The position numbers and the translations under genes are program-made. DNA of 64,000 nt from Pedobacter psychrophilus (GTDB lineage: Bacteria > Bacteroidota > Bacteroidia > Sphingobacteriales > Sphingobacteriaceae). Below the pieces are notes generated by a model. That model was not told the DNA's origin, searched no databases, and saw nothing but the letters and a program-made list of their open reading frames with translations. This document shows, one piece after another, positions 40,752 to 43,471 of this stretch; the first letter of the stretch is position 1; each line of letters starts with the position of its first letter. The stretch spans positions 248,001-312,000 of the forward strand of contig NZ_LWHJ01000030.1 in assembly GCF_001652725.1 (NCBI RefSeq), given 5' to 3'.

Positions 40752-41135
40752 TTATGCGCCAATTACGTTTAGTAGGCTTTCTATTTGAACGTTCCAAATC
40801 ATTTGGCGGTCTTTCAAGTTTTCCGATAAAGCAAAATCTGTGATCACCAATGCAACATCATTAGTTAACTCATCTTTGACAATTTCCAATTCGAAATAAG
40901 TATATGGTTCATCATCAACCCAATGAAACTTAACCGCTTTATTTTCTTTAAAAGAAAGCATTTTGGCTTTTTGTTCTTCTCCGTCGTCCCATATGAAAGT
41001 GAAAATTTGGTCTTTCACTTTCACATCATCAGCAAACCATTCTGACAAACCATTAGGCTGACTGATATAATTATAAAGAATTTTAGATGATGATCTGATT
41101 TCGTATTCTAATGTAAATTTTACTTTTTCGCTCAT
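40752..41135 (-). CDS. START-like domain (AHSA1/SRPBCC) protein
   Basis: The 127-residue protein has KFTLEYEIRSSSKILYNYIS, PNGLSEWFADDVK and an FIWDDGEEQKAKMLSF strand, a small START-like fold in which a hydrophobic pocket binds an unknown ligand. This single-domain form (START_2 type) is common in Bacteroidota and often lies near LptF/LptG genes, as here, 19 bases upstream of that gene. Function is unknown; a role in lipid handling is only a guess from context. Confidence 0.75.
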   Translation of the reverse strand: MSEKVKFTLEYEIRSSSKILYNYISQPNGLSEWFADDVKVKDQIFTFIWDDGEEQKAKMLSFKENKAVKFHWVDDEPYTYFELEIVKDELTNDVALVITDFALSENLKDRQMIWNVQIESLLNVIGA

Positions 41136-41214
41136 TTCGTTTTTATAAGAACCGGTTGTAAAATAGGTAAAATAATTTTTTTTACATTCTTTTTCTTAAG
41201 GAATTTATTTAGCC

Positions 41215-41222
41215 TATATTTG
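41215..41222 (+). promoter_or_regulatory. Candidate promoter of the tRNA-Met array (-7 box)
   Basis: TATATTTG matches TAnnTTTG exactly and lies 21 bases before the first tRNA-Met-like copy. A TTTC at 41192-41195, 19 bases further upstream, could be a weak -33 element. The promoter would transcribe the broken copies and the intact tRNA-Met together. Confidence 0.5.
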
Positions 41223-41243
41223 CAGTCCTAAAAAAGACCACTT

Positions 41244-41316
41244 GGCGGGGTAGCTCAGATGGTTAGAGCGCAGGATTCATAACCGCCAGCTGGCGGACGG
41301 CAGATTAAAAACTGCT
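41244..41316 (+). pseudogene. Broken tRNA-Met copy 1
   Basis: Bases 41244-41284 equal the 5' half of the intact tRNA-Met, through the CAT anticodon loop. The anticodon-stem 3' side and variable loop are then replaced by a palindrome (CCGCCAGCTGGCGG, 41283-41296), followed by a T-arm with GGCAG and CTGCT but an altered loop. The acceptor 3' strand is missing, so it cannot fold as tRNA. Confidence 0.8.
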
Positions 41317-41340
41317 TTGAAAATATAAGATAACACCCTC

Positions 41341-41412
41341 GGCGGGTTAGCTGAGATGGTTATGCGCAGGATTCATATCCGCCAGTTGGCGGACGGCAGA
41401 TTAAAAACTGCT
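41341..41412 (+). pseudogene. Broken tRNA-Met copy 2
   Basis: This copy lies 97 bases after copy 1. Its last part and the following spacer match copy 1 except for one missing G. It has a changed D-arm (GTTAGCTGAG), a missing base after the D-loop, and palindrome TCCGCCAGTTGGCGGA at 41378-41393. The near-identity points to recent tandem duplication. Confidence 0.8.
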
Positions 41413-41435
41413 TTAAAATATAAGATAACACCCTC

Positions 41436-41509
41436 GGCGGGGTAGCTCAGATGGTTAGAGCGCAGGATTCATAACCCTGAGGTCGGCAGTTCGATCCTGC
41501 TCCCCGCTA
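41436..41509 (+). tRNA. tRNA-Met (CAT)
   Basis: This 74-base sequence folds as a full cloverleaf: acceptor GGCGGGG with CCCCGCT, D-stem GCTC/GAGC, anticodon loop TTCATAA with anticodon CAT, and T-arm GGCAG-TTCGATC-CTGCT. The discriminator is A and CCA is not encoded. The anticodon stem has an A-C mismatch at 31-39 and the acceptor ends in a G-U pair. Elongator versus initiator status is not certain, but a paired 1-72 position favours the elongator or an isoleucine-modified form. It is the only intact copy of the array. Confidence 0.93.
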
Positions 41510-41510
41510 C

Positions 41511-41534
41511 AAAGCCACCGGAAGGTGGCTTTTT
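41511..41534 (+). terminator. Hairpin after tRNA-Met
   Basis: AAAGCCACC, loop GGAA shared with the arms, then GGTGGCTTT forms a strong stem directly after the tRNA and is followed by T residues, fitting a rho-independent terminator. Near-identical hairpins recur at 41863 and 42209, so it also marks module boundaries. Confidence 0.75.
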
Positions 41535-41545
41535 GTTTTTCTAAA

Positions 41546-41794
41546 ATGTTCAAAGTATATGCTCTTTATTCTGAGAAGTATAATAAAATCTATATTGGTT
41601 TTACATCAAATTTAGAACAGCGATTAACTTCACATAACGAACTTGCCACTAAAGGATATACTATAAAATATAGACCTTGGAAACTGATTCATCAGGAAGG
41701 ATTTGAAACTAAGTCAGAGGCTATGCAAAGAGAGAAACAGCTGAAATCAGCAAAGGGAAGAGAATTTATTTGGGCGATGATCATTAATGGGTAG
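41546..41794 (+). CDS. Small GIY-YIG nuclease-fold protein, copy 1
   Basis: The 82-residue protein is a minimal GIY-YIG domain: VYALYSEKYNKIYIGFTSNL holds the Y-(x)n-IYIG core, with R21-class arginine in LEQRLTSH, HNELATKG, and E59/K67-type residues in SEAMQREKQLKS. This is the YhbQ/UPF0213-like group. ATG at 41546 is preferred; an in-frame GTG at 41525 lies inside the terminator hairpin. Its last codons and TAG coincide with the D-loop sequence of a broken tRNA-Met copy. It is 84 percent-like to copy 2 by eye; no exact value was computed. Target unknown. Confidence 0.85.
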   Translation: MFKVYALYSEKYNKIYIGFTSNLEQRLTSHNELATKGYTIKYRPWKLIHQEGFETKSEAMQREKQLKSAKGREFIWAMIING

Positions 41795-41861
41795 AGCGTA
41801 AGATTCATATCCGCAGCTGGCGAACGGCAGTTCTCCGCCAGCTGGCGGATGCTCCCCGCTA
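41787..41861 (+). pseudogene. Broken tRNA-Met copy 3 (3' part) with two palindromes
   Basis: The sequence starts in the D-loop (ATGGGTAGAGCG), overlapping the nuclease stop codon, and runs to CCCCGCTA. The 5' acceptor strand is absent. A degenerate palindrome is in the anticodon region (41810-41823) and a perfect 16-base one, TCCGCCAGCTGGCGGA, interrupts the T-loop at 41834-41849. Confidence 0.8.
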
Positions 41862-41862
41862 C

Positions 41863-41888
41863 AAAAGCCACCTTCAGGTGGCTTTTTT
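41863..41888 (+). terminator. Hairpin after broken tRNA-Met copy 3
   Basis: AAAAGCCACC, loop TTCA, GGTGGCTTTTTT. It has the same stem as the hairpin after the intact tRNA but another loop, followed by a T run. Confidence 0.75.
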
Positions 41889-41901
41889 GTTTATTTTACA
41901 T

Positions 41902-42150
41902 ATGTCTAAAGTATATGTTCTTTATTCCGAGAAGCATAAGAAGATATATATTGGCTTCACCTCGAATCTAGAACAGCGAATGATCTCACATAATGAGCTC
42001 GCTACAAAAGGTTACACCATAAAGTTCAGGCCTTGGAAACTCATTCACCAAGAAGAATTTTTAACTAGGGGAGAGGCAATGTTAAGGGAGAAACAGCTGA
42101 AATCGGCAAAGGGAAGAGAATTTATTTGGGAGATCATCAATAATGGTTAG
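41902..42150 (+). CDS. Small GIY-YIG nuclease-fold protein, copy 2
   Basis: This 82-residue paralogue of copy 1 has VYVLYSEKHKKIYIGFTSNL, LEQRMISHNELATKG and GEAMLREKQLKSAKGREFIW, so the whole GIY-YIG core is kept. Differences are mostly synonymous or conservative, which points to selection on the protein. The stop TAG (42148-42150) is part of GGTTAGAGC, the D-arm of a broken tRNA-Met copy, as in copy 1. ATG at 41902; an in-frame GTG at 41878 lies in the preceding hairpin, again as in copy 1. Confidence 0.85.
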   Translation: MSKVYVLYSEKHKKIYIGFTSNLEQRMISHNELATKGYTIKFRPWKLIHQEEFLTRGEAMLREKQLKSAKGREFIWEIINNG

Positions 42151-42207
42151 AGCGTAGCATTCATATCCGCCAGTTGGCGGACGGCAGTTCGATCCTGCTC
42201 CCCGCTA
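42142..42207 (+). pseudogene. Broken tRNA-Met copy 4 (3' part)
   Basis: It begins AATGGTTAGAGCG at the D-loop, shares its first bases with the nuclease stop, carries TCCGCCAGTTGGCGGA (42166-42181) in the anticodon region, and then has an unaltered T-arm and acceptor 3' strand (GGCAGTTCGATCCTGCTCCC and on to GCTA). The 5' half is missing. Confidence 0.82.
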
Positions 42208-42208
42208 C

Positions 42209-42233
42209 TAAGCCACCGGAAGGTGGCTTTTTG
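42209..42233 (+). terminator. Hairpin after broken tRNA-Met copy 4
   Basis: TAAGCCACC, GGAA, GGTGGCTTTTT: the same stem and loop as after the intact tRNA-Met. It closes the second nuclease module. Confidence 0.75.
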
Positions 42234-42291
42234 CTTTTAAAGATTTTACCAACACAGCAGACCTAGCCCAGCTTCATTTTTCAAAAAAAAC

Positions 42292-42299
42292 TATATTTG
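42292..42299 (+). promoter_or_regulatory. Candidate -7 box for the LacI-type regulator
   Basis: TATATTTG fits TAnnTTTG exactly and ends 35 bases before the ATG of the regulator gene. No clear -33 TTTG is seen at the right distance. Confidence 0.45.
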
Positions 42300-42334
42300 A
42301 TTTTTAAGATCACAATGAAATTAGCTTAATTTAC

Positions 42335-43369
42335 ATGATCCTCCCAAAGCGTACTACCATTTATGATATTGCAAAGAAATTAAATTTGAATGCATCTTCA
42401 GTTTCTAGAGCTTTGGCAAATAATAGTAATGTAAGTGAAGCCACTCGAGACCTTATTTTAAAGACAGCAAAAGAATTAAATTATAAACCTAACCGAATAG
42501 CTTCAAACTTAAGAAAAGGGCAAAATCAAACTATTGGGATTGTTGTGCCACGCATAAATCAGAATTATTTTTCTAATGTAATTGCTGGTATAGAAGAAAT
42601 AACTTATCAAAAAAGATATAACATAATTATATGTCAGTCTAACGAATCGTACCAAAAAGAAGTGGAATGTATCAATACACTTGTTAACCAACAGGTGAGT
42701 TGTATTGTAATTTCTACCAGTGCAGATTTTGCTAAAGATGACCATCTTCAAGCCGTATTAGATCAAGGAATTCATCTTGTACAATTTGATAGAGTTGCTC
42801 CAAACTTAGATACCCATAAAGTTTTGAATGACACTCAAGAAGCATCTATGGAAGCTGTTTCGCATCTAATCAATCAAGGATATCATCGCATTGCATTACT
42901 AGAAGGACCTCAAAATCTTAGTATTTTTAGAGAACGAAAAGCCGGATACTTAGAAGCTTTGAGAAAATATAATTTACCAATAAATGAAGATTTAATGATA
43001 GAAAATGCGTGGACTAAAGAACTTGGAGAAAAGGCTACAGAAATGCTTTTAGATTTGCCCAATCCTCCAGATGCCATATTTGCATCCACATCAGATTTTG
43101 CTGCACTTGGGGTATTAACGGTTGCACAAAAAAGAAATATAAAAGTGCCCCAGCAGCTAGGTATATGTGGTTATGCTAATGAGTCTTTCACTGAAATTAC
43201 CAATCCACCATTGACCACAATAGACCAGTTTAGCAATAAAATGGGTAAGGCAATAGCAAATTTATATTTTGAGGAAATAAAGAACAAACAAATTAGTACA
43301 TCACGTAAAATAGTTAATATTAAGCCAGAATTGATTATTAGAGCCTCTTCTCAAAAGAATAAGATTTAA
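42335..43369 (+). CDS. LacI-family transcriptional regulator
   Basis: The 344-residue protein has an N-terminal helix-turn-helix, TIYDIAKKLNLNASSVSRAL (8-27), followed by the hinge NYKPNRIASNLRKGQ, and a periplasmic-binding-protein-like sensor domain beginning IGIVVPRINQNYFSNVI. The C-terminus holds GICGYANESFTEITNPPLTT, the ligand and dimer region of the LacI/PurR group. It is not next to sugar catabolic genes, so its targets cannot be told. It starts at ATG 42335, downstream of the tRNA/GIY-YIG array. Confidence 0.93.
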   Translation: MILPKRTTIYDIAKKLNLNASSVSRALANNSNVSEATRDLILKTAKELNYKPNRIASNLRKGQNQTIGIVVPRINQNYFSNVIAGIEEITYQKRYNIIICQSNESYQKEVECINTLVNQQVSCIVISTSADFAKDDHLQAVLDQGIHLVQFDRVAPNLDTHKVLNDTQEASMEAVSHLINQGYHRIALLEGPQNLSIFRERKAGYLEALRKYNLPINEDLMIENAWTKELGEKATEMLLDLPNPPDAIFASTSDFAALGVLTVAQKRNIKVPQQLGICGYANESFTEITNPPLTTIDQFSNKMGKAIANLYFEEIKNKQISTSRKIVNIKPELIIRASSQKNKI

Positions 43370-43374
43370 TTTTA

Positions 43375-43471
43375 TTAGGGCGCTTTATCCGCCAACTGGC
43401 GGATTCCACTATATCTTTTTTTTGCTAAAAAGCACAAAAAAAAGGATGCCGCTCCAATCGTTAGCGCAAAT
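43375..43471 (-). repeat. Dispersed intergenic repeat, copy A (with nested palindrome)
   Basis: Read on the minus strand it shows GCGCTAACGATTGG, CGGCATCC, a T-run/A-run hairpin, GATATAGTGGA, the palindrome TCCGCCAACTGGCGGA (43388-43403), and AGCGCCC. The same order is found at 51404-51498 and 60497-60607. The ends pair GCGCT with AGCGC, while the other two copies pair GCGTT with AACGC. Confidence 0.8.

Follow-up and report, generated by a model that had tools for sequence, protein, structure and literature searches.

The tRNA-Met array at 41215-42233 of a 64,000-nucleotide stretch of the Pedobacter psychrophilus genome (the window, meaning the whole stretch of DNA that was analysed) raises the question of how two small nuclease genes came to end within damaged copies of a tRNA gene that stands intact beside them. 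The array is made up as follows, with one related palindrome lying outside it:

41244-41322, + strand: broken tRNA-Met unit 1, with tRNA positions 1-41, the palindrome CCGCCAGCTGGCGGA at 41283-41297 and a decayed remainder
41341-41415, + strand: broken tRNA-Met unit 2, with tRNA positions 1-38 (89% identical), tRNA 39-48 replaced by the palindrome TCCGCCAGTTGGCGGA at 41378-41393, then a decayed remainder
41436-41510, + strand: intact tRNA-Met (CAT), from ARAGORN and Rfam
41511-41533, + strand: terminator-like hairpin, copy 1, after the intact tRNA
41546-41794, + strand: GIY-YIG nuclease gene 1, 82 aa from the ATG at 41546, with its TAG stop in the D-arm of the next tRNA fragment
41787-41862, + strand: tRNA-Met 3' fragment 1, starting at about position 16, with the palindrome TCCGCCAGCTGGCGGA at 41834-41849 and a decayed palindrome near 41810-41826
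41863-41886, + strand: terminator-like hairpin, copy 2
41902-42150, + strand: GIY-YIG nuclease gene 2, 82 aa, with its TAG stop in the D-arm of the next tRNA fragment
42143-42208, + strand: tRNA-Met 3' fragment 2, starting at about position 16, with the palindrome TCCGCCAGTTGGCGGA at 42166-42181, then tRNA 49-74 (100% identical)
42209-42230, + strand: terminator-like hairpin, copy 3
43388-43403, + strand: dispersed palindrome outside the array, in surroundings that by eye resemble a longer dispersed repeat

A sequence-only reading of this DNA had counted one intact tRNA-Met among five units, and ARAGORN and Rfam agree on this: across 41100-42400 the Rfam tRNA model matches the intact unit only (61.9 bits), and all remaining Rfam matches are below their gathering scores. 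The two units upstream of the intact tRNA keep its 5' half and the two downstream its 3' part. The nuclease stop codons, which had been placed in D-arm words of the broken tRNAs, are indeed TAG within GGGTAGAGC / GGTTAGAGC, and the proposed module periods of about 352 and 346 bases are borne out by measured spacings of 353 and 345 between hairpins and of 352 and 346 between tRNA ends. The stem described as bounding the modules, AAGCCACC/GGTGGCTT, occurs three times and, with the T that comes after it, looks like a terminator; it is apparently the terminator of the tRNA, copied along with the fragment. We saw no integrase-like ORF between the intact tRNA and the 3' fragments, where the two GIY-YIG ORFs are accompanied by short unassigned ORFs only.

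Both proteins clearly belong to the GIY-YIG family (PF01541 at 71.1 bits for ORF 41546-41794 and 63.1 bits for ORF 41902-42150, cut-off 22.6), family searches of nuclease 1 having started at 41549. The domain spans residues 3-71 of the 81 submitted and is not an HUH Y1 tyrosine transposase. Among 12 aligned relatives Y4, Y15, G17, R25, H29 and E62 are invariant, in roles that would fit an active site, presumably including the catalytic tyrosines, arginine and glutamate. The solved chains closest in sequence are 1ywl and 1zg2 (UPF0213), with SLX1 next, families described as hypothetical or structure-specific and with no tRNA or REP link in the structure listing. A group I intron endonuclease was rejected, TIGR01453 scoring 19.8 and 23.5 bits, far under its 56-bit cut-off, and PADLOC gave no match to a known defence system for three proteins. 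PHROG returned one weak match of unknown function for protein 1 (20.8 bits) and none for protein 2. A phage origin found no support, since phage tblastn gave two weak records (40% over 77%) and a viral scan 5 loci.

The association of these small nucleases with tRNA genes extends well beyond the window. The same genome has six small GIY-YIG genes, and five of them lie at broken tRNA-Met, -Asn or -Arg, three kinds in all. Protein similarity alone yielded 49 relatives; an intact tRNA lies within 400 nt in 30 of them and in 19 it does not, and the linked loci rise to 34 when fragments detected by BLAST are counted. Near the nucleases we found 33 tRNAs in 34.9 kb, 33/33 on the same strand, against 5 in 121.4 kb far from them. 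We met the layout again at Met, Val, Asn, Arg, Phe and other tRNAs, and chance or an assembly artefact was rejected because it is repeated in many of 49 other contigs and at these other tRNAs. Nuclease clade also tracks tRNA identity: on a tree of 105 domains, 65 of them labelled and loci L119-L138 hand-picked from the hit listing, the anticodon changes 17 times compared with at least 34 in 300 shuffles, and the side of the tRNA 4 times compared with at least 10. These labels leave out L111, L115 and L127 as ambiguous; L108, L110 and L112, where the ARAGORN names came from pseudo-tRNAs, count as Val with an upstream tRNA. An alternative labelling, in which only the names of L108, L110, L112 and L127 are changed, gives 17 changes for tRNA and 7 for side.

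At the orthologous locus, which we located in 16 of 18 same-genus genomes, presence of the nuclease is patchy. GIY sequence occurs at 3 of the 16 loci (N-terminally truncated in one), 2 have short tRNA pieces but no GIY, and at 1 the tRNA match breaks off; the other 10 have one tRNA-Met, no further piece and no GIY match. The intact tRNA-Met is 100% identical over 74 nt at 13 of the 16, the window's own included. The 3' fragments and terminators copy local host sequence in 31 of 47 comparable loci, seven duplicate loci being left out, the own terminator being tied with another in 3 and not the best match in 13. As they are so often local host copies, local duplication is therefore part of the process. 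The interpretation given with that first reading is partly supported. Its proposal of a tRNA-linked GIY-YIG element beside which a working copy is left has strong support, and neither outcome set against it, one order at one locus in all relatives with vertically inherited nucleases or nucleases elsewhere without tRNA fragments, was what we saw. The proposed layout holds here, where the nuclease stop lies in a 3' fragment, and is not universal, since in another clade it is a 5' fragment that lies upstream, and the end of the nuclease gene falls within the intact tRNA. That interpretation had also missed the palindrome in the broken tRNAs and its link to dispersed repeats.

The palindrome, of the form TCCGCC...GGCGGA, is present in 4/4 broken units of the array. 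With up to 2 mismatches, the pattern has 10 matches in the window (five places on both strands, four within the array and one at 43389) against 0.06 expected. Each nuclease clade has its own palindrome, at a mostly fixed place in the broken tRNA. With clades read by eye from the tree, or assigned by hand for L004, L057, L102 and L138, which were too short for it, the own palindrome lies near the nuclease in 21/34 Met, 14/19 Arg-type, 13/15 Val and 5/7 Asn cases, and off-kind palindromes number 3 across all clades. Exactly ten bases (39-48) are lost at the palindrome in 16 of 20 placed tRNA-Met cases, the 4 exceptions being one at L041, two at L057 and one at L095. The loss is also ten bases in 6/6 Asn cases, 17 in 2/3 Val cases and none in 7/8 Arg-type cases; further exceptions are L067 (Arg-type), L129 (Leu) and L132 (Val), the last being T-arm and not REP. 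Plain hitch-hiking of dispersed repeats is weakened by this positioning and by the cognate table.

These palindromes are dispersed, REP-like repeats: TCCGCCARYTGGCGGA has 27 matches in the own genome (reversed control, 0), and a looser pattern has 14 to 43 in six other genomes. Across 151 genomes, with palindrome patterns and score thresholds set after the sequences were seen, palindrome number rises with the cognate nuclease (medians of 13 versus 1, 24 versus 4 and 14 versus 3). For the Met type the threshold was 89 bits, just over one Arg-type hit at 87, and G071 was counted on a partial match of 51/80 positions. The counts take in palindromes within arrays; with 6 subtracted per carrier, p is 0.0036 for Met, 0.0006 for Val+Asn and 0.15 for Arg-type. 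Off-diagonal differences occur for TCCCGA with Arg-type (15 versus 6, p 0.01) and Met-type nucleases (11.5 versus 6, p 0.049), and for CTGCCT with Met-type nucleases (6 versus 3, p 0.007). One Met-type carrier holds a single TCCGCC palindrome, and 11 of 137 genomes without this nuclease hold at least 10 (maximum 32); the nuclease may have been carried there once and then lost, or something else may act on the palindromes.

Alternatively, the palindromes might be REPs spread by Y1 (RAYT-type) transposases, with the GIY-YIG genes merely near the REPs or sharing hot spots with them. There are 8 Y1_Tnp matches in the own genome and at least one in 77 of 151 genomes of the family, TCCCGA counts go up with Y1 number (rho 0.43), and in one genome (G037) two TCCGCC-type palindromes (C96:914133-914223) stand beside a Y1 match (C96:914354-914695). 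Nevertheless, palindrome number does not track Y1 in two of the three kinds, TCCGCC (rho 0.08) and CTGCCT (rho 0.13), and in Y1-free genomes the nuclease effect persists for Met (4 carriers, 12.5 versus 1, p 0.002) and for Val+Asn (9 carriers, 8 versus 3, p 0.0003), although not significantly for Arg-type (2 carriers, p 0.12). We hold this explanation to be improbable.

Based on our results, we give a probability of roughly 0.6 to the reading that a tRNA-embedded nuclease module, composed of a GIY-YIG gene, a partial local tRNA-Met and the clade palindrome, is present in the window as a tandem pair, together with the mechanism that follows. We infer that the nuclease cleaves and that the module is mobile. 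The enzyme would cut or nick the tRNA gene, perhaps in cruciform form, at the site that now holds the palindrome; this putative site lies in the anticodon arm for the Met, Val and Asn types, whereas for the Arg/Phe/Met-B type it lies in the D-loop or elsewhere, often following TA. The module would then be duplicated locally by repair and recombination between stretches that copies have in common (nuclease end, tRNA and terminator), with selection maintaining an intact tRNA. Palindrome-bearing broken copies would have lost the target and so be immune, and the enzyme may have a part in making or spreading the palindrome, a role proposed for RAYTs with REPs.

The closest parallel for the tRNA side of this model is SegB of T-even phages, which is reported to cut within phage tRNA genes (PMC13096335, PMC2988022) and to be required for tandem amplification of segB with tRNA-Tyr, ascribed by the authors to microhomology that the 5' region of the tRNA shares with the 3' region of segB (PMC13096335). 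The window genes share with SegB and the other free-standing seg homing endonucleases a small GIY-YIG enzyme coded beside tRNA genes and a patchy presence at a conserved site. They could thus be ordinary homing endonucleases of this kind, with unrelated palindromes that landed in broken, neutral tRNA copies; the tandem modules and the nuclease 3' ends lying in tRNA sequence would fit. We consider this unlikely, as each clade has its own kind of palindrome, mostly at a set position, and genome-wide palindrome numbers rise with the cognate nuclease. Unlike segB, the genes of this family are chromosomal, in Bacteroidota and other phyla; the window pair encode 82 aa each, barely more than the GIY-YIG domain, and have only weak phage similarity, judged from the PHROG and phage tblastn matches; the module has its own palindrome and the broken tRNA copies stay in the array. 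The other parallel is RAYT / TnpA-REP, described in PMC3733652 as an enzyme gene next to its own dispersed short palindromes. REPtrons and REPINs share this arrangement with our modules, whereas here the enzyme is GIY-YIG rather than an HUH Y1 transposase and the palindrome lies inside tRNA copies. The best reading is of modules aimed at tRNA genes that multiply through local duplication; they resemble both systems and belong to neither. The recurrence of the nuclease-palindrome pairing at many tRNA genes in many bacteria points to a type of selfish or amplifying DNA module that has been overlooked.

A domesticated nuclease, co-duplicated with the tRNA for a host function such as control of tRNA dosage or tRNA-gene repair, would account for the merging of nuclease stop codons with tRNA sequence and for the strong constraint on the window pair (dN/dS about 0.08), a level suggesting constraint that would not be required of a parasite in decay. 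With GIY at so few of the genus's orthologous loci, some relatives showing internal stops or matching partially, and tandem arrays, we see little chance of this.

More tentatively, with the odds somewhat against it, small single-domain GIY-YIG enzymes could form a second, non-HUH class of REP partners across several phyla, each lineage making and spreading its own palindrome, CGTC REPs included, and one branch cutting tRNA genes, with the palindrome as cut mark and immunity and the intact tRNA kept by local duplication. If true, an enzyme would be assigned to dispersed palindromes that have none, the broken copies and pseudo-tRNA calls at tRNA genes in Bacteroidota and other phyla would be explained, and intronless homing or SegB-like amplification would be shown in bacterial chromosomes. 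Among the papers listed (20 of 50, 15 of 318 and 30 of 40 matches) there was no GIY-YIG/REP link. CGTC REPs (including dRS3 and RPE-4/6) are said in PMC3733652 to lack a dedicated transposase, with their mode of spread a stated open question, which could be put directly to the test with short DNA substrates and a protein of some 80 residues. The window palindromes differ from them in having no CGTC-AT-stem form, judged by eye alone; such REPs do occur near plasmid-record relatives of the nuclease. In 18 of these, hand-picked from two hit sets, one holding 45 records, CGTC-type REPs lie within 300 nt on either side of the nuclease in 12 and on both sides in 8, with none found at 6, and their density is 3.4 per kb near, 0.64 far and 0.02 in shuffled sequence. 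At L002 and L136 the CGTC finder gave nothing; related repeats, left out of the counts, are visible there by eye.

The tRNA-Met array at 41244-42230 in the window belongs to an arrangement of tRNA gene, small nuclease gene and palindrome that is real and widespread. The array is a row of five tRNA-Met-like units, only one of which is intact: the two upstream of it keep their 5' half, and the two downstream retain their 3' part, and in front of each stands a GIY-YIG gene of 82 aa that ends, with a TAG stop, inside the D-arm of that fragment. A terminator-like hairpin follows the intact tRNA-Met and each 3' fragment, and a TCCGCC...GGCGGA palindrome is present in all four broken units. The nuclease pair is under constraint (dN/dS 0.08 at a dS of about 1.1, from our own Nei-Gojobori script); the enzyme is little more than a catalytic domain, and by sequence the solved proteins closest to it are those of UPF0213 and SLX1. 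The 64-kb window comes from a genome of 4.0 Mb in 33 contigs, which gave eight GIY-YIG matches, two of them resembling larger known proteins by reading-frame length (619 and 460 aa). The arrangement is not confined to this locus, and five of the six small genes sit at broken tRNAs: besides the Met pair, a tandem pair accompanies tRNA-Asn and a TCCCGA...TCGGGA palindrome, one of the two having an internal stop, and a single gene, likewise with a stop inside it, has a broken tRNA-Arg on one side and an intact one on the other. No tRNA is present in the 3.2-kb stretch of the sixth gene (L002). By eye, most of 15 dispersed palindrome copies of this genome (window 43380-43470 and loci L009-L023) are embedded in a longer repeat that is itself dispersed, gggcgtttta - palindrome - ...aaaaaggatgccgcttcaatcgttaacgc, and some occupy the loop of another hairpin.

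Beyond this genome, the association between small GIY-YIG genes and tRNAs holds in relatives, taken as 49 loci from a protein-pattern scan of genome contigs. Their records include many Bacteroidota MAGs and isolates, as well as MAGs of Patescibacteria, Verrucomicrobia, Rickettsiales, Rhodospirillales and Armatimonadetes, among others. An intact tRNA lies within 400 nt of the nuclease in 30 loci and a BLAST-detected tRNA fragment in four more; 15 have neither within that distance. Up to 400 nt from the nuclease we counted 33 tRNAs in 34.9 kb, every one on the nuclease's strand, and beyond 800 nt five in 121.4 kb, three of them on the same strand. Two layouts recur: in the Met, Val and Asn types (nuclease clades named by their tRNA) the order is intact tRNA, nuclease, 3' fragment, and in the Arg, Phe and a second Met type it is 5' fragment, nuclease, intact tRNA. 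At four loci (L061, L063, L070, L073) the TAG stop of the nuclease falls within the intact tRNA, as its bases 8-10. A tree of 105 nuclease domains, with labels on 65, requires 17 changes of anticodon and four changes of tRNA side; in 300 shuffles these numbers were at least 34 and at least 10. At L078 and L079, related small GIY-YIG genes appear, by eye, inside tyrosine-recombinase-like coding sequence.

The palindrome usually has a defined position in the tRNA, as judged from 38 palindromes in 25 loci where both flanks could be placed on an intact tRNA. It replaces exactly ten bases, 39-48, in 16 of 20 cases at tRNA-Met (bases 38-47 by count at L042, whose tRNA is initiator-like by eye), ten bases, 26-35, in all six at tRNA-Asn, and 17 bases of the anticodon arm, 29-45, in two of three at tRNA-Val. 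The CCTGCC...GGCAGG kind is a clean insertion with no base loss in seven of eight cases; these seven are at several places, and TA precedes five of them. The kind of palindrome is also specific to the nuclease clade: with patterns chosen after the sequences had been read, the own kind was found near the nuclease in 21 of 34 Met, 14 of 19 Arg-type, 13 of 15 Val and five of seven Asn loci, with three off-kind palindromes in total and five matches more than 800 nt away. In a group of nine nuclease loci (L069, L071, L075, L076, L080, L082, L084, L085, L087), a CCCTCCG...CGAAGGAGGG palindrome stands upstream of the nuclease in L076, L082 and L085 under the strict pattern, and some others have looser forms by eye. 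ARAGORN called a tRNA-Leu(taa), a Stop(tta), a Phe(aaa) and an unassigned tRNA at L108, L110, L112 and L127; on inspection those at L108 and L110 turn out to be broken copies of tRNA-Val with a palindrome as anticodon arm, and such copies are a source of false tRNA annotation.

The same pairing is visible genome-wide, in three palindrome patterns counted and four nuclease profiles scored across 151 genomes of the family. Carriers above a score gap numbered 20 for Val, 11 for the Arg type and 10 for Asn; the 14 Met carriers have no clear score gap, the next match sitting at a tRNA-Arg. Median TCCGCC numbers were 13 in Met-type carriers vs 1 in the 137 others (p 1e-7; within-genus permutation p 0.0004), median TCCCGA numbers 24 in the 29 Val or Asn carriers vs 4 (p 5e-8; 0.0002), and median CTGCCT numbers 14 in Arg-type carriers vs 3 (p 8e-5; 0.0006). 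After subtraction of six palindromes per carrier for array copies, the Met and the Val and Asn effects stay significant and the Arg-type effect is no longer so. Among the off-diagonal pairs, Arg-type carriers also have more TCCCGA (15 vs 6, p 0.01), Met-type carriers have slightly more of it (p 0.049) and more CTGCCT (6 vs 3, p 0.007), and the remaining pairs in the 151 genomes are not significant. Eleven genomes have at least 10 TCCGCC palindromes and no Met-type nuclease. Y1 transposases (RAYT-type, the enzymes known to partner REPs) are present in 77 of the 151 genomes, that of the window included; across these 151, their number correlates with that of TCCCGA palindromes and shows no correlation with TCCGCC or CTGCCT, and in a joint fit with Y1 the nuclease effect persists for all three kinds. 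In genome G037 (C96:914133-914695), two TCCGCC-type palindromes adjoin a Y1 match, so in some genomes repeats of this sort may be used by Y1 enzymes.

Presence is patchy even at one site. The gene adjoining the array was located in 16 of 18 same-genus genomes, and GIY sequence occurs at three of these loci (L024, L025 and L030, the last copy cut). L031 and L033 carry 20 nt of tRNA sequence upstream and gave no match to GIY. The sequence-only reading had proposed looking in relatives for empty sites with an intact tRNA-Met; ten of the 16 have a single tRNA-Met, and the sequence compared there contains neither another tRNA piece nor a GIY match. Gain and loss thus both occur at one site. In L028 (genome G002) the tRNA-Met match ends after 39 nt, at CATAA, and is followed by coding sequence that, by eye, looks integrase-like; near its anticodon, this tRNA-Met may serve a further element.

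Copying is local. At 54 loci where an intact tRNA lies upstream, the 45 nt past the tRNA were compared with the sequence downstream of the nuclease, and 47 of them had a foreign locus of the same tRNA for comparison. The own sequence scored best in 31, tied in three and was not best in 13; at 13 loci the own score was at least 37 of 45 with a best foreign score of at most 16. Fragment and terminator are thus often copied from the tRNA end of the host itself. In genome G001 (L119, C1:2471500-2478000), seven tRNA-Val-type module copies have equal scores and a spacing of 358; an eighth is found at a greater distance, beyond an insertion that is transposase-like by eye.

The mechanism of the module (nuclease gene plus partial tRNA copy with palindrome) is plausible but unproven. 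The palindrome would mark the nuclease's target within the tRNA gene, and tRNA copies bearing it would be immune. Because the enzyme is little more than a catalytic domain, DNA shape (a hairpin or cruciform) may guide it as much as sequence does. Modules could be amplified by recombination via the shared tRNA and terminator sequence, in likeness to SegB, a phage GIY-YIG enzyme that, according to PMC13096335, cuts in tRNA genes and is required for the segmental amplification of segB with tRNA-Tyr; the survey described there covers phages and archaeal viruses. Intronless homing is reviewed in PMC2988022. The nuclease might also help the palindrome to spread, as RAYTs are thought to do for theirs. 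The arrangement is not described in the open-licence literature that was searched, where no paper was found for GIY-YIG together with repetitive extragenic palindromic, and where none among the matches listed describes a GIY-YIG and REP pairing or chromosomal GIY-YIG genes at bacterial tRNA genes. A GIY-YIG/palindrome link is absent from the term matches within PMC1564403 and PMC12306157, and the matching part of PMC9465073, the one listed paper to combine GIY-YIG, RAYT and extragenic palindrome, gives both genes by name in a table of clade-specific genes and nothing more.

Relatives in plasmid records come from Sinorhizobium, Azospirillum, Rhizobium, Shinella, Photobacterium, Aeromonas and Neisseria, and palindromes of the form CGTC-AT-stem-loop-stem-AT-CCA often adjoin the nuclease in them. 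With a finder built to the description of CGTC REPs in PMC3733652, none was found in six of 18 plasmid-record loci picked by us (Planktothrix, Novosphingobium, Spirosoma, two Sphingobium, Salinivibrio). Such REPs lie within 300 nt of the nuclease in the other 12 and on both sides in eight, with 37 in 10.8 kb near the nuclease, 23 in 36.2 kb far from it and 0.02 per kb in shuffles. On the Azospirillum lipoferum plasmid AZO_p3 (L163), the nuclease, flanked on either side by CGTC REPs, is located between sufB and sufC.
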